A stretch of 64,000 nucleotides of DNA from Liolophura sinensis (lineage: Eukaryota; Mollusca; Polyplacophora; Chitonida; Chitonidae), in the NCBI RefSeq assembly GCF_032854445.1, contig NC_088300.1, forward strand, positions 18,574,608 to 18,638,607, read 5' to 3'. Position 1 is the stretch's first letter, and each line of letters starts with the position of its first letter. Position numbers and translations under genes: made by a program. The notes under the pieces were generated by a model. It did no database searches. It saw only the letters and a program-made list of their open reading frames with translations, and was not told where the DNA came from. Below, in pieces: positions 4,981 to 54,945 of this stretch.

Positions 4981-5156
4981 ATGTATATTTATATTTATAT
5001 TTATATTTTAGAAAAGAAATTTTAAATATTCCGTATGACCTTTGTTCATATTTTTATCGTCTGAATGTAATAGTTTTGCATGCCCCATCTTCTCCAAATC
5101 CTCGATGCCTTGTCTCACCTTGGTGGGATTTAACATCGGAGTTTTCCTGATGATGT

Positions 5157-5400
5157 AAAAAAAAAAAAAAAAAAAAAAAAGTTCAAAAATAGTTTCCAGA
5201 TGCTGGGAAAATAAAGTGCCGAGATATTCTCCTGATGCTGGCAAAATAAAGTGCCGAAATATTCTCCTGATGCTGGCAAAATAAAGTGCCGAAATATTCT
5301 CCTGATGCTGGCAAAATAAAGTGCCGAAATATTCTCCTGATGCTGGCAAAATAAAGTGCCGAAATATTCTCCTGATGCTGGCAAAATAAAGCACCTAAAT
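5157..5400 (+). repeat. A-run followed by 35-bp tandem repeat, about 6 copies
   Basis: A run of about 22 A precedes a 35-bp unit beginning GATGCTGGCAAAATAAAG. Copies start at 5199, 5234, 5269, 5304, 5339 and 5374, exactly 35 bp apart; the last is partial. Reverse-strand ORFs of 75-128 codons here are products of the repeat (35 is not a multiple of 3, so all frames cycle) and are not genes. Confidence 0.9.
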
Positions 5401-5536
5401 TTTGAGTCAAAATGAGCCTTTCTTTTTTCGGGCTGAGTTACACTTCTCGTGTATTACGTTAAAGTTATCATGGAACACAAGGTTTGAAGACAAGACTCAG
5501 TTGATTTTAGATGTGACTTTTATACTCTCAAACAGA

Positions 5537-5564
5537 AAGTGTGTATACCGTTTTATACACACTT
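5537..5564. other. Perfect 11-bp inverted repeat (6-nt loop)
   Basis: AAGTGTGTATA at 5537-5547 is perfectly complementary to TATACACACTT at 5554-5564, with loop CCGTTT. It is one of two near-perfect hairpins within 105 bp. Confidence 0.75.
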
Positions 5565-5604
5565 GTTGGAGAATAGCCCACGATTCACACAAGATGTATA
5601 TCAC

Positions 5605-5639
5605 ATCATGGAGGTTTATTATACATGTACCTCCATGAT
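5605..5639. other. Perfect 11-bp inverted repeat (13-nt loop)
   Basis: ATCATGGAGGT at 5605-5615 pairs with ACCTCCATGAT at 5629-5639. Both arms are flanked by CAC/ACATGTAC words. Function is unknown; it may be the relic of a small palindromic element. Confidence 0.75.
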
Positions 5640-5649
5640 CACATGTACA

Positions 5650-6680
5650 CAATTAAATGGGTGGGTACATAAAGATTCATGGTGTATGCAAGGTTCACAT
5701 TAATGTTCCTCTGCAAATTTGTTACAATTAATTAATCCTTTTTTTTTTTTTTTTTTTTTACACAACTGCTTTTAAAGAGTATGCCTTATAATTGAAAGGC
5801 ACCTATAGTAAGAGGGCTTCAGTCTAGTGTGTAGTTAATATCATATCGTTGAAATTAACGTTCATTCATTCTTGTCGAAATGCCGAGGGATGAAATTTTT
5901 CCTTTATCCATGCAAAGTAAATGCAATAGTATATATCTGTGAACTGGACCTTTTCCTATTTTGGATTCAAATCATTTAACGGAGGACTTTTATGGATACA
6001 CTTAAAATATACACAGGCCTATATATCGACGGAAGATGTGGCTGAGAGCTTTTTATGTCCTGTTATAGCACTATCATGCTGTGAACAGATAAAGATCACA
6101 TTGCAGTTTTCCATTTCACTATGAGAGCGTACCTGTGATGTTTTGCTAGTTAAATTACATAATATATTATGCCTGTTTGAAATCCAGACAGTAGGTTATT
6201 TCAGTGGAAAATGACGGCGTCCAGCTCGTCCACTTATTTATTGATTAACGCTTATCCCAGGCGAGTTGACGCCAAAGATGCATGTACGAAGTAAGAATTA
6301 ACATTTTTCGACCGGTCATTTCTTCACCAGATGTATATTTAGTGTTCGATTTGAAAAATTCGGTGAAATATCACCGATGAACGAGAAGAGGGTATGCCGC
6401 TTTCGTTACTTTCAAGATGGACGGTGAGAGACCTTCTGGTTATTATACTATATCCTAGAGGGTACCATATATTTTACCATATTTTATTTTGTTCTATATA
6501 TATAATGGTCGGTTCCTTGCATGAGCCTGCAATAGAAGTCTCCTCTCGGTTAATGTATAATATATTTCTTGCATGGAATGATCGATATGTAAGCTCTACC
6601 ACTTACCCGGAAAAAACCATGCCATATAGTGAAATTTCCGAGGAAAATAGATGCACCTGCATATACAAATATCATGAATC
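5650..6680. other. No gene recognised
   Basis: AT-rich, with a T-run near 5741-5759. A 139-codon + strand ORF (6394-6813) overlaps the antisense side of a reverse-transcriptase remnant and has no family features, so it is not called. Confidence 0.4.
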
Positions 6681-6689
6681 TATGCGTGG

Positions 6690-7860
6690 TATATACCAGC
6701 GGTCAAATAGGACGTTCCGGGTAAATAATAGAAAGGCCAATTTCCAAAACTACGTTAAGCTCAAATTAACACCAAATAAAGAAATAAGAAATATATACAG
6801 TACGAAATTATAGCAAGGGGTCATTTACAGAGAAGCAGCTAACACCTTTCAATGATGTTGAAAAGACGCAAGGAATGATCTAAGCAGTGAAATGAACATG
6901 ATGATCAGTATTCAAATAGTATAGCATGCTATAGTAGTCTATATGTTGTAAATAATCTAAGTATGTTTCTCAGTTGCGCTTTCATTGTAACGATTCATAC
7001 ATACAAATCATTATATATGCGGCGATCTAATTCAACACGACGAATGTATATATACAGCTCCTAGCCCAGGGCAAAGCGGAATTAGACACAATCATGAAGC
7101 AGAGAGCCAGAGGTTCTTACAAGATAATTATACTCATGGTATATAAAAATTAAGAAACATTGAGGGAAGGTGCTTGATGGAATAACTTATACTCACCTAG
7201 CTGCTTTGCAGTAATACCTCGTGACGTTCATTGAAATCATAACACACGGGATCTAACAAATGCTGTACAGTGTGAGATAGGAACACGCCTGCACGCCATA
7301 TGCAAGAGCTTAAGTTACAATCCAAATAAAATACAAAGTCAAAATTGAAACTATCGATAATTGTCGCAAAGTTTGTGAGGCAGGAAACCGTTTTGGTCAG
7401 GGGGAAAATGTACCATCTGGAAAGTCCGTAGTTTCCTTTAAATCCACCGAAGGATATATAAATATATCTTTCACAGCCTTTGCTTCCTTTGTTTAAAACT
7501 AGCAGGTCATCAATATACCATTTAGTGAACGAGAAAGATCGGGCCTGGTAAAGATTACTCTTTAATAATTATTGTGTATAGTGTCGTATTCATACGAGAA
7601 CAGTTAGGTCAGTGAAAAGGGGGCACCATTTGTATCCATCGGAATATGACGTCCCTGTTACTAACATAGGCCCAGACAATGAGATATTCAATCAGCTCGA
7701 TGAACAACAAATCCCATGATTGGTAATCACCCTTATTGTGGAACTGAAGAAGGCTTTGTTGCCTTTGACGTTAATTTAAACGTGGCAACTTTTATTGAAC
7801 GTCGAAACAATTAGTGATCAGATGAAATTCTGTCAGTTAAAGGAAACATGAAAGGCTTGG
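6690..7860 (-). pseudogene. Reverse-transcriptase element remnant, copy 1
   Basis: Read on the minus strand, short pieces in shifting frames match a reverse transcriptase. TNGAP lies near 7622-7636 and the catalytic WYIDDLL-type box near 7505-7530. A DFNFDF piece follows, then a piece equivalent to the YGV..SQLIR region near 7310-7340. Stops and frameshifts are frequent. Nucleotide blocks align in the same order with 57.7-58.6 kb and, for the 3' part (6705-6800), with 60.44-60.60 kb. The IPMGTN/YIDDLL type of RT is common in marine-invertebrate genomes and may be Penelope-like; that clade call is inference. Confidence 0.6.
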
Positions 7861-13780: not shown

Positions 13781-16387
13781 CCCAAATTCAGTGTCTATAC
13801 TCAGCTCAAAATCAATTCAAGGACATGTTTGCACATTTTGTGACAATTCTTAAATTCCAGTATTATGGTAAGGTGACTTCAAATTTGTCTGTTATAAGAC
13901 ATGTACTGCTGTGGTCTCTAGTACATGTAGCTGTGAGCGAACTTTGCCACAAATGTAGATCATCGCTTTACCTTACAAGGAAAATATGTCAGTATTAAAA
14001 GTTAAAGGTTATTTATCCCCAGGTAGTGTGGTTACAACCTTTCATAAAACTGAATTCCATCGTCAAATCGAAAATTTCTTAGCATTAAGCAAAGTCAGTC
14101 AGTGATTTTACTTGATAATCTGCAAGATGTATTTAAATACATGTAGGTATGTTTGATCTTAAGGTAGGAATTTAGATGTGGTATGATGATATTATGATGC
14201 CTGTCTTCAGGCAATCAAAACGAGAGTATGAAGAAATGAAGAAGACAAGTGACAAGGAGAAGGAGCAACTTGATGCCGTGTTAATCACATCCCGGGAAGA
14301 AGCTTCATATCTGGAAGAGAAGAGGGCAAAGGAACAGGAGAAAATGAATGTGGTAAGGCGACTTGATGCTGAGAAAATAATGATATTCTGCTTGGAGGAA
14401 TCTTTAATGATGTTCTTTTGGAGGGAATGCTTCAGTAATGCTATACTGCAAGTAGGGGTGGGGGTGGGGGTGGGGGGATTTATCATGTTAGAAATGCATC
14501 AGTAATGATGTTCTGTTTGGAGGAATGTATAAAATATTTATGTTTTTTTGGGAGCAATTCATAAATATTAATAATGGTCTTGTAGGAGAAGCACTTAAAT
14601 AATGCGGTTTTACTGGCAGGAATGCATAAAATTATTACATTCTGTTGGGAGGAATGCATAAATAATGGCCTTTTAGGAGGAACAGTTAAGTAATGATGTT
14701 CTGCTGGGAGGAATGCTTAAATATTTATGTTCTGCTAGGAGGAGTGATTAAATAATGAAATCTGCATACAGAAGCTGATGGGGTAGTTTTCTAAAGCTTA
14801 CAGGTACCAATTATAAAAACATATGAGTTAAACTTCAAAAGACAGGGAAATAATTACAGCAATCAAAGGAATCCTGTTGGATTGGCAGACATTAATAAGT
14901 TGTTGTATATCTTCATGCTTTGAAATGTGGGTTGTTTCCCTTGACATAAACATTGTGCATTCGAATGTGACAGGCCATCAGTCAGTTGAGCATTGAGGCC
15001 GACGCTGGTTCACAGAAAAGTAAATCTAACCGAGGTAAAGTCCCGCCAAACCTCTCCAAACCGCCATTTGCTGCTATGCCTGTCCCATCAGGAAGGAGTA
15101 TATCGATATCTGCCGAACCCAGTCGTGCACAGCCCAAGGTCACTGTAAGTGTTTTTTTCTTGTCACAGTTGTCTAGAAGGTTTGTTGAAAACTGTTTGTT
15201 TTGCCGATATGAACTTTGCAGATAAAATAATCAAAGACGAATGTACAGTATTTTTTATGTTGGTATTTAGTAGTGAGATGCTTCTCATCTGTGATGGATA
15301 AAAGAATTCAGCTGATGCCCTGTGAAAAACACTTTCTAAGAAATTGAACTGGATTTAATGTTTTGACCCTATTAACTCGCAAATAATTGTATACGTTAAT
15401 TGTGAAGCCTGTTGTGCTTGAGTGGGTTCTCGCATTTTAGGGTTCAAAGAAATGAACCAGCATTTTTGTGATTATTTTGCAGCCTAGTTTCACACATTCT
15501 ACAGAGGCACCACCAGTCCCAGCGAGACCTCCTACTGTGTCCAGCTCAGAGGCTGCAGCTAACTGGCTTAAGTCAGCCCTGTCTGATGCAAATTCCTCAG
15601 GAAATGCTGTCAATAAAGCAGCGGTAAGTGATAAATGTGGTCTCTCATTTGAGGGTGGGGGAAATATCTGATAGGAATAATGTGGGGAAAGTGGGGGATG
15701 GGGACATTTGAGTTCCTTTGGAAAGCAATTCACTTTAACTTCTAATGGAATAGTTGAAGTGAAAAAGCTGTTGGGACAGCAACCTATAACAGTGATCCAG
15801 TTACATGTTTATGGATATAATACACTGTACTTCTATTTCTACTTCTAATGTGGCATGTGTGACACTACATTCCACAACAATAATTTACTTTTATTGTTAA
15901 AATGCGAAACTGAAGAAATACACATACGTGAATTTCTAAAGTTAAATTTGTTTGGTACCACCTCACAGAAGTGGGTCTGATTCCTTAATTGCCTGCCACA
16001 TTGGCAATACTTCAGCCATATTGTGATGATGGATTAACTGAACTGATGTGTGAGAATCTGTCTGACTTCTGGGTGTGTTTTCAATCCTGACAGGCTGCCA
16101 TGGGAAACTTGACCCCAGAGCAAGTTAAGGAGAGACAAGAGTACCTGAGGCAGCAGAGAGACAAGCTGTTAGAGATGAAGAAGAGGGAGAGAGAAAAGCA
16201 GCTACAAAATGCAGCCAAAGATCTACGACAGAGACCCACTTCTGCTCGTGTAGCACATAAGGCTATATCCAGAGGAGGGGATGTCAGCTCTGAGGCAACG
16301 CCAACCAGTGTGGACAACGAGAAGAAATTGGCCATGCGAAAAGCCATTGCAGAACGGCTCAAGGCTGAGGTGATAGGCAGCAAATGA
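10256..16387 (+). CDS. CFAP36: Cilia- and flagella-associated protein 36 (CCDC104), 8 coding exons
   Basis: Exons: 10256-10361, 12217-12281, 12663-12773, 13034-13248, 14211-14352, 14974-15144, 15483-15623, 16094-16387. All introns are GT-AG, phases join without conflict, and the total is 1245 nt (414 aa; vertebrate proteins are about 340). Residues ~5-125 form the BART domain: an N-terminus with LLGFLGSPLFQLPVITYMEA, then ETLLEGF, DLKDIFQ and EDFGIFVRLM. BART domains bind ARL2/ARL3-type GTPases, and CFAP36 binds ARL3 in cilia. A charged coiled coil follows (exon 5, REYEEMKK...KEQLDAV), then a Ser/Pro-rich linker and a basic C-terminal helix (exon 8, LRQQRDKLLEMKKRERE). The start codon is the ATG beginning MAARKNEW, matching the family N-terminus. 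Introns carry SINEs and simple repeats. Confidence 0.93.
10806..11053 (-). mobile_element. SINE family A, near full length
   Basis: On the minus strand it has the tRNA-like head (GGGGCCTCCGTGGCT), box-B-like GAGTTCAAGTCC, a body with CAACCTGCGGATGGTCATGG, and the tail GTACGGCGTGAAACACCAAT plus AAAT repeats. It lies in CFAP36 intron 1. Confidence 0.85.
11883..12101 (+). mobile_element. SINE family A, diverged
   Basis: Starts GGGGCCTC, carries GTCGCTGTGAGTTCAAGTCC, CCATCATAATGCTGA and GTGAAATATTCTTGA, with a worn tail. It is the second copy in CFAP36 intron 1, opposite in orientation to the copy at 10.8 kb. Confidence 0.8.
13748..13779. repeat. (TA)n microsatellite
   Basis: About 32 bp of TA repeat in CFAP36 intron 4. 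Confidence 0.9.
14384..14756 (+). repeat. Degenerate tandem repeat
   Basis: Variants of GGAGGAATGCATAAATAAT with ATGATGTTCTG recur irregularly about every 35-65 bp in CFAP36 intron 5. The array is old and diverged; the G-rich tract lies within it. Confidence 0.65.
14454..14477 (+). other. G-quadruplex-prone tract
   Basis: Four runs of 4-6 G separated by single T on the sense strand of CFAP36 intron 5, 101 bp after the exon 5 donor. Four G-runs of at least 4 with 1-nt loops is the most stable class of predicted quadruplex, in DNA and in the pre-mRNA. Confidence 0.8.
15800..16005 (+). repeat. Dispersed repeat, twin at 18.4 kb
   Basis: About 190 bp closely matching 18415-18620 in the same orientation: 'ctatttctacttctaatg', 'gtgacactacattc', 'gaagaaatacacatacgtga', 'cacagaagtgggtctgattc'. 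It lies in CFAP36 intron 7, while the twin is 2 kb past the gene. A following CTTCAGCCATATTGTG block also appears at about 32045. Confidence 0.75.
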
Positions 16388-19726: not shown

Positions 19727-22700
19727 ATGTCTGCAACGGCGAGATCGAGTATCTTATCGACGAAGGTGGTACAGCTCTGTGCCAAACAGAACCATTCCAT
19801 TGGTGTATGTGGGGCAAGATTTGCTCCCATTGGAAAATTTGCAGGCCTTGTTTCCAGTTTCGCGTCTCGTCGCTTCTACTCCGAGAATGGCTCGGGTGAG
19901 TGTTGTCACCAGAAATGTATGATAGTCCCGCGTTGGCAATAGTCTAAGTTTACCGTAGCTACCACTGTGAAGCTAAATCCTAGTAAATGTGTTATAGATC
20001 CCCGTTATATCTTGATTGTCATTTAAGGATATCCTAATGTGGCATATTATGTCAGAAAATGTGCATGTCTGAATTTGATTGTATCTTTGTCGTCATTTTA
20101 CACATCACAACAGCCAACCAAAGTTATCCCCAGAGCACATAGTGTGTACAGACAGTATCAACAATACACACTAATTAAATCCTTTCAAATTGTTTGGTAT
20201 TATCTGGTATTATCTGGTATGATTTATTTATTTATTTGATTGGTGTTTTATGCCGTACTCAAGAATATTTCACTTATACGACGGCAGCCAGCATTATGGT
20301 GGGAGGAAACCAGGCAGAGCCCAGGGAAAACCCACGACCATTCGCAGGTTGCTGGCAGGCCTTCCCATATATGGCCGGAGAGGAAGCCAACATGAACTGG
20401 ACTTGAACTCACAGCGGCAACTAAAATGTTGATATCATGTCTTTTTACGTTCTGCTGCCTACAAAATATTTGTCACTGTCGGGGCATAACCTACATTCTG
20501 GATGCGTTTATGGGTGAGGTTCCACTTCTTCCCGTTTCACCCCTCAAAAACTAGTATCACGTTATGTCTTAGTCTCGGGGGCCTCCGTGGCTCAGTCGGT
20601 TAAAGCGCTAGCGCAGCGTAATGACCCAGGAGTCTCTCACCAATGCGGTCGCTGTGAGTTCAAGTCCAGCTCATGCTGGCTTCCTCTCCGGCCGTACGTG
20701 AGAAGGTCTGCCAGCAACCTGCGGATGGTCGTGGGTTTCCTCCGGGCTCTGCCCGGTTTCCACCCACCATAATGCTGGCCGCCGTCGTATAAGTGAAATA
20801 TTCTTGAGTACGGCGTAAAACACCAATCAAAAAAAAAAAAAAAAAAAAAATCTTAGTCTCTGTCGTGTAACAAGGAAGGTAATTCAGAGCAAGCATATTG
20901 CCATCTATATAGTAAACAGATGTAATGTATAAACTACCAGCAGGTCGCAGTTTGGATATCAAAAATCACACCTCTTGTTCAAGGTACATGTTAAGGTGTT
21001 ATCATTTCTGTTATACTGTTGAGTGCAGTATTAAAACATAGGAAATCTGTGAAAGCATTATTGTTTGATGAGTATTGAAAGACTATGTTGCATTGTGGTT
21101 AGCTGAATACAGGACTTGTTATGGGGGGAATGTGTTGTTTAGATTGCTGTTGCCTGTATCTTGGGTGACGATGTTGCAGTGTGGTTGGCTGAATACAGGA
21201 CTTGTTATAGGGTAGTTGTGTTGTTTAGATTGCAGTTGCCTGTATCTTGGGTGACTATGTTGCAATGTGGTTAGCTGAATACAGGACTTGTTATAGGGTA
21301 GTTGTGTTGTTTAGATTGTAGTTGCCTGTATCTTGGATGACTATGTTGCAGTGTGGTTAGCTGAATACAGGATTTGTTATAGGGTGGAAGTGTTGTTTAG
21401 ATTGCAGTTGCCTGTACCTTGGTTGACTGTGTTGCGGTGTGGTTGGCTGAATACAGGACTTGTTATAGGGGGAATGTTTTGTTTAGATTGCAGTTGCCTG
21501 TATCTTGGGTGACTATGTTGCAATGTGGTTAGCTGAATACAGGACTTGTTATGGGGTAGATGTGTTGTTTAGATTGCAGTTGCCTGTATCTTGGGTGACT
21601 ATGTTGCAGTGTGGTTAGCTGAATACAGGACTTGTTATGGGGTAGTTGTGTTGTTTAGATTGTAGTTGCTTGTATTTTGGGTGACGATGTTGCAATGTGG
21701 TTAGCTGAATACAGGACTTGTTATAGGGGGAATGTTTTGTTTAGATTGCAGTTGCCTGTATCTTGGATGACTATGTTGCAATGTGGTTAGCTGAATACAG
21801 GACTTGTTATGGGGTAGATGTGTTGTTTAGATTGCAGTTGCCTGTATCTTGGGTGACGATGTTGCAGTGTGGTTGGCGGAATACAGGACTTGTTGTAGGG
21901 TGAATGTTTTGTTTAGATTGCAGTTGACTGTATCTTGGGTGACGATGTTGCAATGTGGTTAGCAGAATACAGGACTTGTTGTAGGGTGGAAGTGTTGTTT
22001 AGATTGTAGTTGCCTGTATCTTGGGTGACTATGTTGCAGTGTGGTTAGCTGTATACAGGACTTGTTATAGGGTAGATGTGTTGTTTAGATTGTAGTTGCC
22101 TGTATCTTGGGTGACTATGTTGCAGTGTGGTTGGCCCTATCCAGAGCCGCTTTAGTTCAATACCCAGGTTAGGGGCTGGTTTTGTCGTATGTGAACTGGC
22201 CAAAGGGGTCTCGGTCACATGTCCCCATTGTGAGGTTGCACTGAATCTCTCATTCACTTTTTCTGCTGTACATCAGTGCATTTGAGCTCAAATAATTTTC
22301 ATACCATCTTTAAAGTTCAGATATGGTTAAATTAAGGCTAAAAACAGAATACAGGGGTTACCCAAATTAAAACAATATAGAGCCCTGGGCAGACTACTTG
22401 GATACTTTTCACTATTAAATAGGGGATCACATATGATTTTGTGTATTAAAAGTGAGGATGTTCAACTTGTATATACTTGCTAAATTTTTTCTCCAGGAAC
22501 CCTGGTTTGCTCCACATTTTCTAAAACTCTCCACTGTCGCACATGTCAAACAGCAGTCAGAATTGAAATGTGCTTTTATTGTTATTCGGATTCCAGGGTC
22601 TAGTTTGCTGCTTTGTGAGGCATGCTTGTGAAGTTCTCTGAATGCGTTGTTTCTGATAGGGTTGGGATCACAAAAAATTTTTTAAAGGTGAACTTCAAAA

Positions 22701-25700
22701 GTTTTTGATCAGTTGATACATTTTGATACATGGTTATGATTGTGTCATATTTTATATTATTGTGTATATGTAAGGAAAATTGTAGGGTCTGTATGGTCAA
22801 AAATAAATCGCACAAATATAGATTTCTGTAATGCCATGGTTGTAACACCATTTTGGAAAATGGGGAGGTGAAAGCGGTCCTAGTTCATTGATCTGATTGT
22901 TCGTGATGCTAGAGTAACTTAAATTTTTGCAAACATGAATGACAGACACCGTGCACAAGTGACACTACATGACTACAACATTTTAATATCAAAAAAGAGA
23001 ATGAAGCAATGGACATTTTCGATACGTCACATTGAATGGACAGTTTTAAACACTTATCTTAAAAATATCTAATGAATTATTTTAACGAAGAAACCTTCTA
23101 CAATATTGTACAATAACAGGAGAATCCTGTAGACGACATTTGTTGTGAAAATTGAAAGCATTGCACTTCAGCTTTAGTTATGACCCAATTCCCCCATCCC
23201 AGCCCATCTGAGTACGGATGGCAAGCTGTTGTTGTGCCTAGATGATAATGTCACCTGCAAGCTTTATTATCTCATTTACTTGTACCCTCAAATATAATAT
23301 GATGGTGTGTACTAATGAGCACCCATGAAGTTTTTACACTAGCCTTGGCATTCCTGTCATACTTGAAATGTCTTTTCAGATCAGAAATAGGACGAAAATG
23401 TGCACTTGATTAAGAGAACTATATAAGAGAATTTAATTGTTAAATTACTGTATAATTGTGTCAATATCAAGTTACAGTTGTGTTTGAAAATATCCAGATT
23501 AAAAGAATAAATATAGAAATTCAAGTACCATATGCTATGTTATTGTATCAGAATCTAAAATTCACAAGTGCCATCAAATTGTTTATGTGCACAACCTTTT
23601 CTCATTTTCAAATGCAAATTGGGTAGTCGATTTTATTAAATAAATATGAGAAAATGAGAACTCTTTCATTGCAATTGTCTTCCTTTTAGGAGCAAAAGAC
23701 AAGAAGCTGTTTACCCCTGGCCCTCTGGGCACCAGCCCCACAGTTAAGCAGGCCATGCTGAGAGACCTGGGCTCTAGAGATGTGGAGTTTGTAGAAACCG
23801 TCCGTTATATCAGATCAAAGCTCACCAAAATTGCAGGTATGTGAGAATTCATTCGGTTTCAGAGATGACAAACTTTAGTGTTTTTATTCTTTGTTTAGAG
23901 ACACTTGAAAAAGTATTACATTATACACAGCAAGACTGTTTGGGTGGTATGGTATTGTGTAGGCAAAACTTATTTATATACATAAACCACATTTACATGT
24001 AACTCTAATACAATTGACAAGACATATCAGTCTGGACTGAAAAAAAACAACTGGTCTCTAAAGCTTAACTTGAACAGTTCACACACATGTTTTTTATATG
24101 ATGCATCTGAATTTTTAAGTTATTGATATTTTACACAGGTGTTTATATATAAATGTACATGCCTGTCATCCTCTTGCTGAACAGTGTCATCTGAATGGTG
24201 GACACTTAAGGCCTTCAGGGTTCAGAGTTTAGTTATGTTTGTGCCATCATACACTGTATGTACAGCACATATTCATACCTGCATGTTTTCATTTAATTTT
24301 GTTTATCAGGAGTATCTTCGAGTGAGTTCACCTGTATACCTGTCCAGGGTAGTGGGACATACGGTGTGGAGGCTGTGTTCCAGAGTACTGTTCCTAGGCA
24401 GAACGGCAAGGTAAACACCTGTAATCAATGGCCAGGGGGGCGAAGATCATTCCCGTAATCCACCTGTCGGTGTTTTTCACTGACTGATGTTCAGGCAGAT
24501 TAGTTGGTTAAATTGTCCATGAAGTTACGTGTGATTTGCTTTAATTTGCATGAACCCTATATATTCTTCAACCTTTTCGCATGTTTGCAAGGTAATTATT
24601 TAGTTACCTCAGTGTGTCTCAGTACAAAATTCACTCTGCTGAGTTGAATTTTAAAACTGCCATTACCGAAAAAACCCACTTAATGGAAGTGATTATTTTT
24701 CTCTCTGCAACAAGTATTGTCCTACAAGTTGAACAATAATAACAGAAGGGTTACTGATGAGGCAGTTTGTGCAGGATGATTTTCAAATATAGAACTACTT
24801 TTTGTATACAGTTTGATTTATATGTGATTATATAAGTCTTTTAAGGAAATAAAGCTGTACAAAAGCATTCCTAAATACCAAGAACAAAAAAAAAAGAGGA
24901 AAATAAAACACTTTACAAATTTATTATTGTATTAATGATTTTAGGTTCTTGTTTTTGAAAATGGAGCATATGGCAAGCGTCTGGCCAAAATCTGTGAGAA
25001 AATGGGAGTGGATCATCATGTGGAGTCTTTCCCCGAGGACGACTTCATTGACTTCAGCCGGGTGCAAGACATCGTCAAGGCAGATAACTCCTTCACAAAT
25101 GTGGCAGCAGTTCACTGTGAAACAAGCTCAGGAGTTATCAACCCTGTTGATCAGATTGGAGGACTGGTGGAGACCTACCTACCCAGTAAGATGCTGAAAT
25201 ACTTACTTCACTATCATTATTGAAGGCAGCGAAAGCATTGATATGAATAGTATGTCAGAAGAAACAGTATTATTTATCTGTTTATTTATTTGAAAGGCGT
25301 CTTACACCGTACTCAAAAAACTTAACTTATACAAGGGAGGTCAGCATTTTGATGGGAGGAGACTGGGCAGAGCGCGGGGGAAGCCCACGACCATCCACAC
25401 ATTGAAACAACATTGAACACTCTCCAGAAAAATAGTTTGATCTACTTTTTGGGAAAACTGTTTTTCAAGTGAATAAATTTTGTTTAGATTGTGCAGTGGC
25501 TTTTGCCACTTGACACAAAAAGACAGCTAAACTTCTGAATTCAAAATGCATATATATTTTGACCTATGAATGCCTTTGATGATACCCACTGGATCCAAAC
25601 AGATGACTGTAGAAGACAATGTTTCAAGAACATTTCATTCAGTTAAAAAAAAGGAAAGTTTTTTGTTTGATTTTGACACTTGGTGCTTGTAAGTTTGAAT

Positions 25701-28011
25701 CTATTAAGATAAGTGAAGATAGTCATGCTTGTGTCTCTTCTCTCAATATAGTTGTTTTGGTATGTACATATGAACTTATGTATGCTTAGGATTTTAAGTT
25801 GTTTTGGTGACAAGTGATTTCAGTGCCTAGCCACTTTTTAAAAAAAGTATTTCTGAATCTTTTTAAACACTAACACTTCTTGAGGGAGTCATGGCAATTT
25901 TTTTCTTATAACTCAATTATGAGTGTTACTCCTCAGATGCGACTTGTTTCGTGGATGCGATGAGCAGCTTTGGTGCAGTTCCTATCGACGTTGCAGCCTC
26001 GGGTATTGACTACATTGTCAGCTCAGCCAACAAGTGTGTGGAGGGTGTCCCTGGTTTTGCTTATGTCATAGCTCGAATCGAGAAAACTGCGCAAGTGCAA
26101 AGGTCTGTCTGAATAATGTCTTGTCCTGTTCAGTTAATGAAGTGGAAAATTCATTTTGAGTTTGGCAGTAAGCATATTTAGTTAATTAACTTTTTTCGTT
26201 TTTGTGTATTACTTATTTATTTTTTTATGGGTCATTTTTAAGACTTTAGGTGGGGTCGCTGTGAGTTCAAGTCCAGCTCTTGCTGGTTTCATCTTCAGCC
26301 GTACATGGGAAGGTCTGCCAGCAACCTGCGGATGGTCATGGGTTTCCCCCAGGCTCTGCCCGGTTTCCTCCCACCATAATGCTGGCCGCCGTCGTATAAG
26401 TGAAATATTCTTGAGTATGGTGTAAAACACCAATCAAATAAATAAATAAGACTTTAGGTGGACACCCTTAATCCAAGTGATTAAGGCTAAGTATTGGTTA
26501 GTCAGGTGTACACTGACTGTTTGGGACATGAAACCCCCTCTTATCTTACCATGTTTACCATTACATTTTAGGTGAAAATGATGACTTTTTGCATTAAGAC
26601 ATTTTGCTCTGATTAAGTTTAATTTTTTGATGTTTAATATGATTTCATCTTGAAGGATTTTCCCGAAGTCTGAGTCTGGACCTTGTTGACCAGTATGAAA
26701 CTCTGGAGACAACCGGTCAGTTCCGGTTTACTCCCCCAACTCATGCCATGCTGGCATTTAGACAGGCTCTGGATGAACTGGAACTGGAAGGAGGAGTCAG
26801 AGGCAGGGCTAGTAGGTAAGACGCATATAAGAGTTACTTCCCCTTATATGAATGTGGCTCAGCAATTTGTTACATTTGATTGGAGATAGTATATTGACTA
26901 CATTTGTGTATATAAATTGTTTACAAGACTTTTTTTTAATATTTCAGGTATCGTGAAAACCGAGAAATCCTGAAAGAAGGGATGGCAAAGCTAGGATTTA
27001 AGGAACTACTTGATGACCGACACGATGGATACATCATCACATCCTATCACTATCCCAAAGATCCTAAATTCTCTTTCAAGGACTTCTACACTAGGCTCAA
27101 TGACAAAGGTGAATATCTTCAGAATATAGATTGAGAAGAACACGACCTGCAGATGGTCGTGAGTTTCCTTCGGGCTAAGCCTGGTTTCCTGCCACCATAA
27201 TGCTAGCCGCCTTCGAATAAGTGAACTATTCTTGAGTATGGCGTACAACACAAGCGAAATAAATGCATAAAAACGGTCAAGGACAATTATTACATCCTCT
27301 GTTTTATTGAATTGTTTGGAAAATTGTTTGTTTTATTTGAATTGTTTCAAGATGTGCTAGAGAATACAGATCGATGGAAGTTTTACTTAGCAATTTTCTC
27401 AATATAGTGAGCGTGGATTTTTGCTGGTTCAGTCAACTAAGACAATCGATCTTTGTTGCAGACATCAGACCCTTCACTAATGAGATTACATTCTCAAATC
27501 CTGCTCTAAGTGGTGAAGCTTCGACTGTTCATTGCCAAGTTTGTAAGGCATCTGACAAAGTTAGATGGTTTTCACCAGGCTTTGCCCATTTTCCTCCTAC
27601 CAACTTAGGGGCTGTTGTATAAATATTATTGAGTATGGTGTAAAACCAAATATCAAATATTAATAGTAAGTTGTATTTACTTACCTCTCCTCTTTGTTTT
27701 CTTTGTGAAGTTTTCTGCCTTTAGTCTTGTCATCTCATGGACAACAGTATTGAAGTACAGGATCAGTAACAGAATAATATGTACTGAAGCACGTTATGTC
27801 AGCCTAAATTAAAATACGACCATGATGTTTTGTTTCCTTCTTCTCTTACACAGATCAGGTGATCTACCCAGGTAAAGTGTTGAATGCAGACTGTTTCCGG
27901 ATAGGTAACATAGGTTACCTGAAGCCTGCGGACATGAAGCACCTAATGGTGTGTGTGGAGGAGGTGTGCAAGGATATGGGTCTGAAGATGCCGCTGGACA
28001 GTGAGGGATAG
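19727..28011 (+). CDS. 2-aminoethylphosphonate:pyruvate transaminase (PhnW-type), mitochondrial-type leader
   Basis: Exons: 19727-19895, 23690-23836, 24310-24410, 24945-25185, 25937-26102, 26669-26815, 26948-27108, 27854-28011 (1290 nt, 429 aa). It is a fold-type I PLP enzyme that moves the amino group of 2-aminoethylphosphonate to pyruvate, giving phosphonoacetaldehyde and alanine. Family marks: [18 protein letters not shown], the [10 protein letters not shown] glycine loop, [39 protein letters not shown]-lysine motif [30 protein letters not shown] and the C-terminal FRIGNIGYL. This matches PhnW rather than AGXT, whose PLP-lysine motif differs. The first ~55 residues are rich in R/S/A without acidic residues and end RRFYS, like a mitochondrial presequence with an R-3 cleavage site. 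Exon 6 start needs care: the better-looking acceptor at 26655 (exon from 26656) gives the family-like [10 protein letters not shown] but breaks the frame; the acceptor at 26668 keeps frame and loses GFSR. Confidence 0.9.
20221..20420 (-). mobile_element. SINE family A, 5'-truncated
   Basis: Minus-strand copy with a TAAATAAATAAAT tail, GTACGGCATAAAACACCAAT, body and box-B region. The tRNA-like first part is missing. It lies in intron 1 of the transaminase gene. Confidence 0.85.
20577..20850 (+). mobile_element. SINE family A, full length with 10-bp target duplication
   Basis: Head GGGGCCTCCGTGGCTCAGTC with box A (TGGCTCAGTCGG), box B (GAGTTCAAGTCC), the family body, a GTACGGCGTAAAACACCAAT tail and about 22 A. 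TCTTAGTCTC occurs at 20567-20576 and again at 20851-20860, a perfect 10-bp target-site duplication. It is among the best-preserved copies here and useful as the family reference. Confidence 0.93.
21081..22135 (+). repeat. 86-bp minisatellite, 12 units plus a partial
   Basis: The unit begins GACTATGTTGCAGTGTGGTT and includes CTGAATACAGGACTTGTTAT and TTGTTTAGATTGCAGTTGCC. Starts fall at 21081, 21167, 21253, 21339, 21425, 21511, 21597, 21683, 21769, 21855, 21941, 22027 and 22113, all exactly 86 bp apart, so units differ only by substitutions. It lies in intron 1 of the transaminase gene. Confidence 0.95.
22140..23680. other. Intron 1 remainder; nothing else recognised
   Basis: AT-rich intronic sequence between the 86-bp array and exon 2 of the transaminase gene. 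No mobile element was recognised. Confidence 0.45.
24563..24592 (-). mobile_element. Fragment of a TIR-ended MITE (family 2)
   Basis: ATTCTTCAACCTTTTCGCAT followed by GTTTGCAAG is the inverse of the right terminus of the copy at 35.5-35.7 kb. The interior does not align convincingly, so only one end is called. It lies in intron 3 of the transaminase gene. Confidence 0.55.
25271..25405 (-). mobile_element. SINE family A fragment
   Basis: Minus-strand tail and body only: AAATAAATAAAC tail, GTACGGTGTAAGACGCCTTT, CAAAATGCTGACC, GATGGTCGTGGGCTTCCCCC. Diverged; in intron 4 of the transaminase gene. Confidence 0.75.
26254..26446 (+). mobile_element. SINE family A, 5'-truncated with 15-bp target duplication
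   Basis: Begins in the box-B region (GGTCGCTGTGAGTTCAAGTC) and ends in AAATAAATAAA. TAAGACTTTAGGTGG flanks it perfectly at 26239-26253 and 26447-26461. A 5' truncation with an intact duplication is the mark of target-primed reverse transcription. It sits in intron 5 of the transaminase gene. Confidence 0.93.
27147..27265 (+). mobile_element. SINE family A fragment
   Basis: Body from CCTGCAGATGGTCGTGAGTT through CACCATAATGCTAGCC to a worn GTACAACACAAGCGAAATAAAT tail (shown in two parts of the element). In intron 7 of the transaminase gene. Confidence 0.75.
27560..27655 (+). mobile_element. SINE family A fragment, old
   Basis: Keeps AGGCTTTGCCCATTTTCCTC and GAGTATGGTGTAAAACCAAA. Diverged; in intron 7 of the transaminase gene. 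Confidence 0.6.
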
Positions 28012-28759: not shown

Positions 28760-29520
28760 TTAAGATGGATCGTGTATCTAATCCAGGTTATAAACATTGA
28801 TGGATACTGTTGTGTATCTAATGTGCATGTAGGCTGTACACATCGAGGGATATGTGTCTCTTTCCGGGTGTAAACATTGAGGGGTGTGTGTCTCATTGCA
28901 GCTGTAAACATTGAGGGATAATGCACCTAATGTAGGCTGTAAACATGGAGAGGTGTGTGTCTCATTCTGGCTGTAACCATTAAGGGATGTGTGTCTCACT
29001 CAGGTTGTAAACATTGAGGGGTGTGTGTCTCATTGCAGCTGTAAACATTGAGGGATAGTGTACCTAATGTAGGCTGTAAACATGAAGAGGTGTGTGTCTC
29101 ATTCTGGCTGTAACCATTAAGGGATGTGTGTCTCACTCAGGTTGTAAACATTGAGAGGTGTGTGTCTCATTGCAGCTGTACATTGAGGGATAGTGTACCT
29201 AATGTAGGCTGTAAACATGAAGAGGTGTGTGTCTCATTCTGGCTGTAACCATTAAGGGATGTGTGTCTCACTCAGGTTGTAAACATTGAGGGGTGTGTGT
29301 CTCATTGTAGCTGTAAACATTGAGGGATAGTGTACCTAATGTAGGCTGTAAACATGGAGAGGTTTGTGTCTCATTGCAGCTGTAAACATTGAGGGATAAT
29401 GTACCTAATGTAGGCTGTAAACATTGAGGGGAGTGTGTCTCATTCTGGCTGTAACCATTAAGGGATGTGTGTCTCACTCAGGTTGTAAACATTGAGGCAT
29501 GCTTGTCTGATTCCGACTGT
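28760..29520 (+). repeat. About 34-36-bp minisatellite with about 136-bp higher-order period
   Basis: Short units of the type TGTAAACATTGAGGGGTGTG / TGTCTCATTGCAGC alternate in a set of about four variants. The GTTGTAAACATTGAG variant starts at 29004, 29141 and 29276, so sets repeat every 135-137 bp. The GAGGGATA word is shared with the adjacent 68-bp array, suggesting common origin. Reverse-strand ORFs here are repeat artefacts. Confidence 0.85.
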
Positions 29521-29529
29521 AAACATTAA

Positions 29530-30765
29530 GAGATGTGCTGAGGAAAGTGTGTATCATTGAATTGGGCTGTAAGTATTTACAGTTGTAGTTACTAGCATTG
29601 AGGTGCTGTCTATCGAATTCATAATGTGGACAGTGAAAGTATGTGTGTCATATCAGTGTCTCTAATCAGTGCTATAACAACATCCCCTCCTCATTAGCCA
29701 TTATTAACTGTGTTCTCAAAGCTATTTACATTTTCACTTTTTTATTTTTAAGTCAGCAAATTTGATGTACACTTATCACCATTAAGGGACAACATGGGCA
29801 TGTACACTGGTTCTCTCTTACAATAGATATAGAAGGTGATAAAATTTTTGGCTTTTTACACTTTGCTTAGCAATTTTGAGAGGTAAGGGGTTGGCCTGAT
29901 CAGCCCAATGTTGCGGCCTGAGTGTCATGTCCAGTGTCTTTGGGTTAGTACTTTAATCATGCAGCAGTATGAAGGCTGTAGGACGTTACTGATACACTCA
30001 TTATAGGTACTAATGCAGCGACATTTGTGTGGGGTTGTGGATTTAGTAATGTCAGGAGACATTGCACACTGTTTGATTACCTTTATTATGCACATTTGTA
30101 TGAATTTATTATGCTATGTATGGGGTTGCTTTTGTACAAACCTGTGGTAACTGCTTTATATTCAGTTCTGTGAAAATCCATTGCAAAGTAGAGATATTCA
30201 CTTGTTTTAAAATGGAGGAAGGAAAGATCTATTTCGTGACCTTTCTTTGTGAATATTTGTAAAGAATTATGCACAGAAAAGACACGGTGATTCTTTTTAG
30301 ACAAAGACGAAGTCATTTTGAAATAAAATGTAAAACATGTCATCATTTTAAAAGGAAAATCTATCATTCCTGGTGTATTTGTCGATCTTCGCTGGGTTTT
30401 TTTTTTTTTAAATTTTTAGAAAATGCATGAAAGAATGTTTCCAGATATATTGTGGACTTTACAATTCTGCTTGCAGTTGAAATGTGTGACTTAGTTACCT
30501 GTAAACTTACATGTATTCAAATACGTCAGAAATATGTACACATCTCATTGTATAAGTGATCTTTGCAAAATTATGTTTATTTGTATGTGTATGTATGTTT
30601 TATGTTACATCTAAGTTCACAACCAAATGGGAGTTCAGTATTAAGTCTGCCTTTATATCTCTTATATTTGTTTCATCTCTCCTCACAAAATAAGTATTTA
30701 TTAAATGAATGAAGATTTTGACATTGCGTTTCTTTTCACCTTTCTACACGAAACATTCCACCTGT
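29530..30765. other. Intergenic; nothing recognised
   Basis: No gene or clear repeat. Several ATTAAA/AATAAA-like words are present but none can be tied to the transaminase transcript. Confidence 0.4.
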
Positions 30766-33852: not shown

Positions 33853-40647
<6,795 letters not shown>

Positions 40648-52502: not shown

Positions 52503-54945
52503 TTGCCTCAGTCCCAGCGTAACAAGGAACGGACCGAGGCAAGTCCTCTTGATTTTACATCCTCAAATGAAGAATCCTACAATGTTACATTTTCTCTACA
52601 TGAACTATCCGCATCCCTGAGCAAGGCCATGACTCCAGGGCCAGATGATATCCACTATCAGCTTTTACGATACTTTCCAGAATCTTCCTCGAGAGTGCTT
52701 CTTGGAATATTTAATACCATTTGGATTTCCGGGAATTTTCCTGCCTCATGGCAAAACGCTATTATTGTCCCCATCCCAAAGCCCGGAAAGGATTCTACCG
52801 ATCCAAATAACTATCGTACTATTTCCTTAACCAGTTGTGTATGCAAGACTATGGAGAGGGTGATTAACGATCGCTTAGTCTGGTTTTTGGAGACTAATGA
52901 GTTGATAAGCGACATTCAATGTGGATTTCGAAAAAATCGCAAGTACTGTTGATCACCTTGTTCGTCTAGAATCCTTTATTAAGAACGGTATCGTTAATCG
53001 TGACCATTTCGTATCTGTTTTTTTTGACCTGGAAATGGCTATGACACTACTTGGAAATATGGCATTATGGAAAGATATGCATGGATTTGGACTTAGAGGT
53101 CGGCTTCCTGACTTTATTCGTAAATTCTTAGACCATCGTCACTTCCAAGTTCGGGTTGACTATCTCACTACTTTGAACAAGATCAGGGGGTTCCTCAAGG
53201 CAGCATTTTTATCAGTTACTCTCTTTAGCATTAAGATTAATAGCCTTGCCAGAGTTTTATCTCCTAGTATGAATGCATTCCTTTTTGTGGACGATCTTGG
53301 TATCTCTTGTCGAGGCAAAGGTATGCACATTATTGAGAGACAACTGCAGATTTGCCTTAACAAAATCCATGCCTGGGCACTGGAGAACGGATTTAAGTTC
53401 CCCAAGTCGAAGACTAACTGTGTACACTTTTGTTGGAAGTACTTCCCCCATGAAGACCCCAAGGTATTTTTAGATGGGTCCCCCATCAAGGTTGTGCCGG
53501 AGGCAAAATTCCTCGGGGTGATCTTCGATAAGCACCTTACATTTAAATCTCACATTAATTATCTTAGAGCCAGATGCCTAAAGGCGCTTGATATTTTGAA
53601 GGTTGTCTCTAGTGCTCGATGGGGAGGGGATCATGAAACCCTACTTCAGCTCTATCGAGCACTGATTCGTTCTAAGCTAGACTATGCCTGCAGTGTTTAT
53701 GGAGGTGCGTCACGCTCCCGGTTGAAGAAACTCAATACTGTACATCACCAGGCCCTACGGTTGTGCTTAGGTGCTTTCCGTACCTCTCCTGTGGAGAGTC
53801 TGTATGTTGAGGCAAACGAGCCTCCCCTGGAGCTTCGAAGAACTAAACTATCCTTACAGTATATCACCAAGCTTAGAGCCAATCCATCCAACCCAGCCTT
53901 TGATTGTGTCTTCCATCCGGAATTTGAAGACTTATATGCTCAGAAGCCATCCATTGTGCCTCCACTGGGTGTCCGCATCCAGGAACATGTGCAAGCAGCT
54001 GGACTTGGGCTGGATACTATCACCCCCATACGCATCCAGGAAGATCCACCGTGGTTAAGCCCTGAGCCTCAGGTTGATACCTCGCTCTCCTCCCTGAAGA
54101 AATCTTCCACCAACCCTTTAGTATACCAACAGGAGTTTAGTAATATGTGTTCAAAGTATCCATTTTATCACCGTATATTCACTGACGGTTCCAAGAATGA
54201 TGATGGCGTGGCTTTCGTCGCTGTCCTTGGGCCCAGAACCATTTCAACCATTACAAATCCCTGTTCTGCCAAGGCAATTAGGTGCGCACTTCGGTCAATT
54301 CCAGAGCTAGGAGGTGGCAGATTTCTCATCTGCTCTGACTCCCTTTCCTGCCTCCAGGCAATTCGGGCTAGTTCACCTGTACATCCAGACATTCTGTCTA
54401 TCAGGGAGATGTTTAAACGACTTAATGAAGATTTTATCATTGTCTTTTGTTGGGTGCCCGGGCATATGGGTATCCCTGGGAATACTGTTGCAGATGAAGC
54501 CGCGAAGGCGGCTCTGCATTCCGTTACTACCCAAAATGACGTTCCATATTCGGACTTGCGTTCACTTATTTGCTCCTATATCAAGCGCTTGTTTCAGGCT
54601 CAATGGGATGACCAGACAACCAACAAACTGCATGATATTCGTCAGTTTGTCGGTCCAGCACCTTCCCTTTCACGGCATCGTCTCCGCTCTTGCATTTTGA
54701 GGAGGTGTCGTATCGGTCACACACGTGCTACGCATGGGTATTTGTTGAAAGGAGAAGATGCTCCTCATTGCTTTACTTGTGATCAACGGTTCACAGTCAA
54801 GCATATATTGCTTGACTGTGGCGACTTTGCTCCTGTACGAGATTCCTTTTATCACGTGGGCTCTCTTTCAGAACTTTTCAATTCTGTAGAAAGTGATACT
54901 ATTTTTGATTTTCTCTCTACCATTGGTATGGCAGGAAAGCTGTGA
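52503..54945 (+). pseudogene. LINE ORF2 reverse transcriptase and RNase H, two overlapping frames
   Basis: Frame 1 (52503-52952) has RT N-terminal blocks: LSKAMTPGPDDIHYQLL, IIVPIPKPGKDSTDPNNYR and ISDIQCGFRKNR. It shifts at about 52925-52950 into a 674-codon frame (52921-54945). Near residues 35-42 that frame has a FDLE box, and residues 122-126 are FVDDL, the catalytic YxDD box with both Asp kept. GVIFDKHLTFKSHI and the RALIRSKLDYA block follow. RNase H starts at FTDGSK (residue 420); CSDS and the late GHMGIPGN..ADE (His at 515) are present. The expected AEL..I block with the second acidic residue looks lost by a small deletion between them. The zinc-like C-terminal part (CFTCDQRF..HILLDC) is kept. 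The long open frame suggests moderate age. Confidence 0.9.

Follow-up and report, generated by a model that had tools for sequence, protein, structure and literature searches.

The DNA analysed here, hereafter called the window, is a stretch of 64,000 nucleotides (C6:18574608-18638607, C6 being the contig) within an assembly of 609,464,459 bases in 632 contigs. On its forward strand lies a real gene of the PhnW type (19727-28011), with an ATG at 19727, a stop codon ending at 28011 and eight exons separated by seven GT-AG introns (Table 1). An earlier note on this DNA had described PhnW motifs running through eight exons with true introns; the seven introns and the motifs of exons 2 to 8 are borne out, but exon 1 contributes the leader only. 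The case for exon 1 as drawn is that no other ATG-to-donor candidate of the right phase between 16420 and 23690 has a donor score of at least 5; when the threshold is lowered to 1, this interval yields 11 right-phase candidates, of which exon 1 alone reaches 90 bases. On the donor matrix used, five of the seven donors called in the gene score 5.0 or less, and a 57-codon open frame by itself lies within what chance allows (about 6 percent, by our own estimate). A short way upstream of the ATG there is a donor-like site, at 5.0 by the same scoring, so that the 5' end of the gene may differ from the model.

Table 1. Exons of the PhnW-type gene and position of the reading-frame break (window coordinates).
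Feature	Position	Strand	Content and basis
Exon 1	19727..19895	+	Start codon and leader, residues 1-56, RRFYS to residue 52; splice and phase signals only
Exon 2	23690..23836	+	PhnW motif; GT-AG edges, PhnW match, whole-genome family match
Exon 3	24310..24410	+	GSGTYGVEA motif; GT-AG edges, PhnW match
Exon 4	24945..25185	+	NGAYGKR and HCETSSG motifs; GT-AG edges, whole-genome family match
Exon 5	25937..26102	+	D226, K252 (aligned with the PLP lysine of 1m32), SSANKCVEG motif; holds the frame break; whole-genome family match
One-base reading-frame break	26077..26092	+	Inside exon 5; PhnW is matched in one frame before the break and in another after it
Exon 6	26656..26815	+	SLSLDL and RFTPPTH motifs; GT-AG edges, PhnW match, whole-genome family match
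Exon 7	26948..27108	+	GT-AG edges, whole-genome family match
Exon 8	27854..28011	+	R397 in CFRIGNIG, stop codon; acceptor and stop

Several repeats are found in and around the gene. Intron 1 holds 12.2 copies of an 86-base unit (21081-22132), and an array whose units measure 34, 103 or 137 bases begins less than 1 kb downstream of the stop codon (28827-29537). Copies of a short interspersed repeat lie in the introns (20591-20838, 20220-20416 and 26251-26445), in which ARAGORN found no tRNA; that this repeat is a tRNA-derived SINE is a guess. Elsewhere in the window, an exon at 36656-36859 on the reverse strand belongs to a proteasome alpha-3 subunit (Pfam Proteasome, 7.3e-9; PDB alpha type-3, 1e-14), and the segment 34375-34455 on the same strand, which is without a Pfam match, may by its resemblance be the last exon of that gene. 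A coiled-coil-like exon at 16091-16381 on the forward strand has no trustworthy match in Pfam or PDB; we take it to resemble the C-terminus of CFAP36. A 674-residue frame at 52921-54945, also on the forward strand, matches reverse transcriptase (2e-7, over the cut-off) and RNase H (9.8e-5, under the cut-off) and is probably a non-LTR retrotransposon. A search of the whole window with Rfam at gathering scores gave no match.

With an X placed at the frame break, the spliced protein scores 446.2 bits against TIGR02326 (cut-off 400.8; residues 62-419) and 434.8 bits against TIGR03301 (cut-off 360.8), both of which have curated equivalog cut-offs (NCBIfam), and 464.3 bits against PRK13479 (cut-off 296; residues 59-426). 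The top PDB match is the PhnW structure 1m32, with 349.5 bits, and identity to the three PhnW structures is 50, 48 and 42 percent. Alanine-glyoxylate and serine-pyruvate aminotransferases (AGXT) share the fold family, and structures so named also match the protein, from 78.1 (3zrp) and 72.2 (1vjo) down to 31.7 bits (2huf). It is hardly conceivable, however, that the enzyme is an AGXT merely resembling PhnW: the curated PhnW cut-offs are passed, the best AGXT-named structure falls about 270 bits below PhnW (a more than fourfold difference, which disfavours AGXT as the best match), and 77 of the 78 columns in which at least 95 percent of 83 rows agree are retained, the exception being Y361. These rows comprise 80 bacterial loci (the best 80 of at least 582 confirmed) and three PDB entries; D226, K252 and R397 are identical in all 83. 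We take Asp168, Lys194 and Arg340 of 1m32, to which they correspond, to be the PLP aspartate, the PLP lysine and the substrate arginine. Kinship with PhnW, as judged from the sequence, is firm, in agreement with the earlier assignment, and the protein is predicted to be a PLP-dependent 2-aminoethylphosphonate (AEP):pyruvate transaminase. For all its likeness to bacterial PhnW (50 percent core identity to 1m32, besides the conserved columns), the window gene differs in being spliced, in its N-terminal extension before the bacterial start and in the frame break that it shows in the assembly.

That break, one base within exon 5, had been passed over in the earlier note; the family motifs quoted there are real. 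Spliced unaltered, the exons give a frame that stops after exon 5. At columns 270-278, scored against the 83 PhnW rows, the shifted reading gains 16.4 bits and the unshifted one scores -14.7. A 251-base stretch around the break occurs once in the assembly, and the whole-genome family search returned PhnW exon matches at the window locus only (n = 5; exons 2, 4, 5, 6 and 7). Since exon 5 is broken and neither this search nor the 251-base stretch revealed a second copy in the 609 Mb assembly, the sequence as given does not encode a full enzyme; the missing intact full-length frame concerns the assembly or the allele, and not the kinship with the family. A recently broken pseudogene, as might be read from a break in the sole copy found, is improbable, in that no further frame break or stop was seen across the eight exons, conserved residues are retained on both sides of the break, and the break falls within a short single-base run, presumably a usual kind of site for assembly errors. 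Splicing could in principle bypass the break, as an AG 13 bases further into exon 6 opens, when read by eye, a frame into SLSLDL and would give a shorter enzyme. We regard this as very improbable: L270, G275 and R278, alike in 81, 72 and 77 of the 83 rows, respectively, would be lost, and the residues replacing them have scores from -12.6 to +0.5 bits over the six placements tried. As the eight exons show no other break, an assembly error or a private broken allele is the most likely explanation.

The N-terminal extension had been described as a basic, mitochondrial-style leader of 55 residues ending in RRFYS; counted to the end of that motif it has 52 residues, with seven Lys or Arg and no Asp or Glu. 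Its end, R-F-Y before S, presumably fits a mitochondrial cleavage motif (recognised by eye), so that a basic, acid-free N-terminus with such a motif is found here. None of 26,750 windows of 52 residues, drawn from the 85 sequences of the tree described below (the core of the window protein and PntC included), has the make-up of the leader. The leader is no more amphipathic than its shuffled versions, however: its best hydrophobic moment was reached by 48.5 percent (14-residue) or 80.6 percent (18-residue) of 5000 shuffles. Mitochondrial import of the enzyme is plausible.

For the phylogeny, 85 rows were used, namely the window protein, 80 bacterial loci (the best 80 of at least 582 confirmed) and four PDB entries, the sole non-PhnW row being PntC (6pd1); AGXT was left out. 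The window protein lies among the PhnW rows of this tree, but its position there is an open fork, from which it departs on a long end branch of 1.01; no starred set of the 85-row tree contains it. No sister bacterial group or donor lineage can be named. The nearest bacterial relative among the matches listed is L001, from Hydrogenedentota, at 58 percent identity. Neighbouring genes of the best 80 of at least 582 loci include a PhnX motif at 14, PbfA at 18, PhnY at 13 and PhnA at 11 (the last three at 48 percent identity or more), and PepM together with Ppd at five, one of which, L029, reaches 32-34 percent only. Context labels, assigned as one of four groups per locus to 45 rows among these 80, change 18 times on the tree, against a shuffle mean of 24.1 and with no shuffle in 200 as low; with 3 as the least possible number of changes, they are far from single origins. 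By path, and in a placement without support, the five nearest of the best 80 loci are L006, L001, L008, L005 and L036; next to three of them lie breakdown genes (PhnX, or PhnY with PhnA), PhnX in two cases, and none of the five has PEP mutase and decarboxylase beside it. The neighbours of these rows thus favour breakdown over synthesis. With the window row unplaced, however, the bacterial context is silent on the direction of the window enzyme.

Two observations concern the bacterial and viral relatives themselves. In L071, a single 680-codon frame (5032-7071) carries a PhnX motif and a PhnW match in the same frame and is likely a PhnX-PhnW fusion in a Rikenellaceae bacterium; L016 was rejected as a second such fusion, its overlong PhnX frame differing from the frame of PhnW. 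A scan of viral contigs showed that one IMG/VR contig (L081, 4001-5029) encodes a PhnW relative of 37 percent identity.

Within the window, we confirmed that the gene has no PhnX or PhnY partner: nine bacterial marker proteins (PbfA, PhnY, PhnA, Ppd, PepM, PhnC, an MFS transporter and two PhnX) gave no tblastn match at E <= 1 over the 64,000 nucleotides. In an animal genome, the lack of partners in such a stretch says little. Searched exon by exon, 14 control genomes give sub-cut-off matches to PhnW (14 of 14), PhnX (13), the decarboxylase (13) and PEP mutase (6), and for this reason the identities of the pathway genes in the whole assembly were taken from spliced or whole proteins. A PhnX is encoded on contig C4 (C4:22411666-22412427) by a single frame of 281 residues, which scores 290.4 bits over a cut-off of 220 and whose seven PDB matches are all phosphonoacetaldehyde hydrolases or called like one. 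It has the Lys of MGLxK, which we take to be catalytic in PhnX. The protein is divergent, with 34-45 percent identity and 45 of 56 columns retained among those shared by 11 or more of 12 bacterial PhnX (the 14 found at the best 80 of at least 582 PhnW loci, minus L016 and L071, whose frames are overlong). As an in-frame stop lies just before its ATG, this PhnX is without a leader. It belongs to the same genome and not to a contaminant, as argued by the length of its contig (25 Mb) and by a repeat about 3 kb away that matches, at 96 percent identity, the intronic copy at 20591-20838 of the window. A second PhnX-family match, on contig C9, reaches 34.5 bits, far under the cut-off.

The same assembly encodes, on contig C10, a PEP mutase of seven spliced exons and 291 residues, with 403.4 bits over a cut-off of 319.55 and 570.1 bits to 1m1b/1pym, presumably the PEP mutase of the mussel Mytilus edulis. 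A phosphonopyruvate decarboxylase lies on C6, at 43.71 Mb, where six exon matches cover profile positions 12-113 and 171-360; when spliced from eight exons, X standing in for a further short one that was not found, it scores 448.4 bits over 312.5. First-exon candidates with a donor score of at least 5.5 number four for PEP mutase and 12 for the decarboxylase, and one of the 12 has a basic, acid-poor, leader-like start. No convincing PhnA was found in the genome (best 28.1 bits; cut-off 407.55). For PhnY, none of the 22 exon matches exceeds 635.65, a whole-protein cut-off that is out of reach for single exons; the best has 77.3 bits (30 of 43 candidates were scored), and the matches are scattered and of the aldehyde dehydrogenase type. 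The genome search proposed in the earlier note turned up PhnX and PEP mutase over their cut-offs and, among the candidates scored, no PhnY over its own, and the fate of phosphonoacetaldehyde, which had been left open for want of a partner in the window, has a likely answer in the PhnX.

All three members of the set for AEP synthesis (PepM, Ppd and the AEP transaminase) therefore occur in one genome, as does the PhnWX pair for breakdown. As far as sequence can tell, the family of the window gene and the co-presence of all four genes in one assembly are settled. Transamination is reversible, and we think it likely that the PhnW-type enzyme stands where AEP synthesis and breakdown meet, at a branch point with PEP mutase, the decarboxylase and PhnX. 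In such a scheme, PEP mutase would form phosphonopyruvate, the decarboxylase would convert it to phosphonoacetaldehyde, and the transaminase would interconvert phosphonoacetaldehyde and alanine with AEP and pyruvate, supplying AEP for lipid and glycan head groups, while PhnX would cleave phosphonoacetaldehyde to acetaldehyde and phosphate. As the genome also has PEP mutase and phosphonopyruvate decarboxylase, the transaminase would complete AEP synthesis.

The direction of the pathway is a separate matter. The earlier proposal, that the animal recycles or degrades AEP, agrees with the PhnX in the genome but is incomplete, PEP mutase and the decarboxylase being present as well. An enzyme that is mainly degradative, recycling dietary or turned-over AEP to acetaldehyde and phosphate together with PhnX in the manner of bacterial PhnWX, would account for a PhnX over its cut-off and would accord with the PhnX motif at 14 of the best 80 of at least 582 bacterial loci, including two of the five nearest. 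PhnW and PhnX of bdelloid rotifers are described as a resource pathway (PMC3499245), and a PhnX-like protein is listed in the proteomics of snail hemocytes (PMC6281880). Yet the genome also holds the full synthesis set, and PhnX is leaderless while PhnW may be mitochondrial; we consider a mainly degradative role possible but rather unlikely. We judge synthesis to be no less likely than degradation. Two reasons put it first here: the set is complete, and ceramide aminoethylphosphonate, an AEP sphingolipid, is described as the main sphingolipid of marine molluscs and cnidarians and as contributing, in mussel hemocytes, 29 mol percent of phospholipids (PMC9174665). We infer that the net direction is mostly synthesis, with PhnX serving as overflow or turnover.

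A more doubtful elaboration is an AEP cycle split between candidate compartments, with PEP mutase and PhnX cytosolic and the decarboxylase and transaminase mitochondrial. Phosphonoacetaldehyde intended for AEP synthesis would then be shielded from PhnX, and only the exported part would be destroyed. The leader of the PhnW-type protein, the leader-like candidate exon of the decarboxylase and the leaderless PhnX are compatible with such a split.

Within the phosphonate metabolism of invertebrates, the gene is probably an ordinary component, if one that has received little study, and it adds to a known family, AEP transaminases having been reported already in coral, oyster and rotifers. In the coral Acropora digitifera, a gene set for AEP synthesis that includes the transaminase was reported in 2013 (PMC3640398), so that there too AEP transaminase, PEP mutase and phosphonopyruvate decarboxylase occur in one genome; the coral transaminase gene model has four introns, against seven here, and PhnX is not treated by name, the word phosphonoacetaldehyde having no occurrence in PMC3640398. 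A coral PhnX is tabulated among candidate transferred genes (PMC4878875). In the oyster Ostrea edulis, LOC125651440 is annotated as 2-aminoethylphosphonate-pyruvate transaminase-like (PMC12015263) and is, by annotation alone, an animal member of the same family as the window gene. Bdelloid rotifers share, by description alone, these enzyme activities, with transcripts for PhnW, Ppd and PhnX that are there called foreign (PMC3499245). A description of the four-gene set in an animal was not found in the titles and abstract beginnings of the open-access papers listed, which is no claim of its absence from print.

How animals balance the making and the breaking of C-P bonds is little described in the open-access literature searched. 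With PEP mutase, decarboxylase, transaminase and phosphonatase in one genome, that balance, and the compartments in which it is struck, become directly testable; the control of such a two-way pathway, possibly by compartment, would be new.
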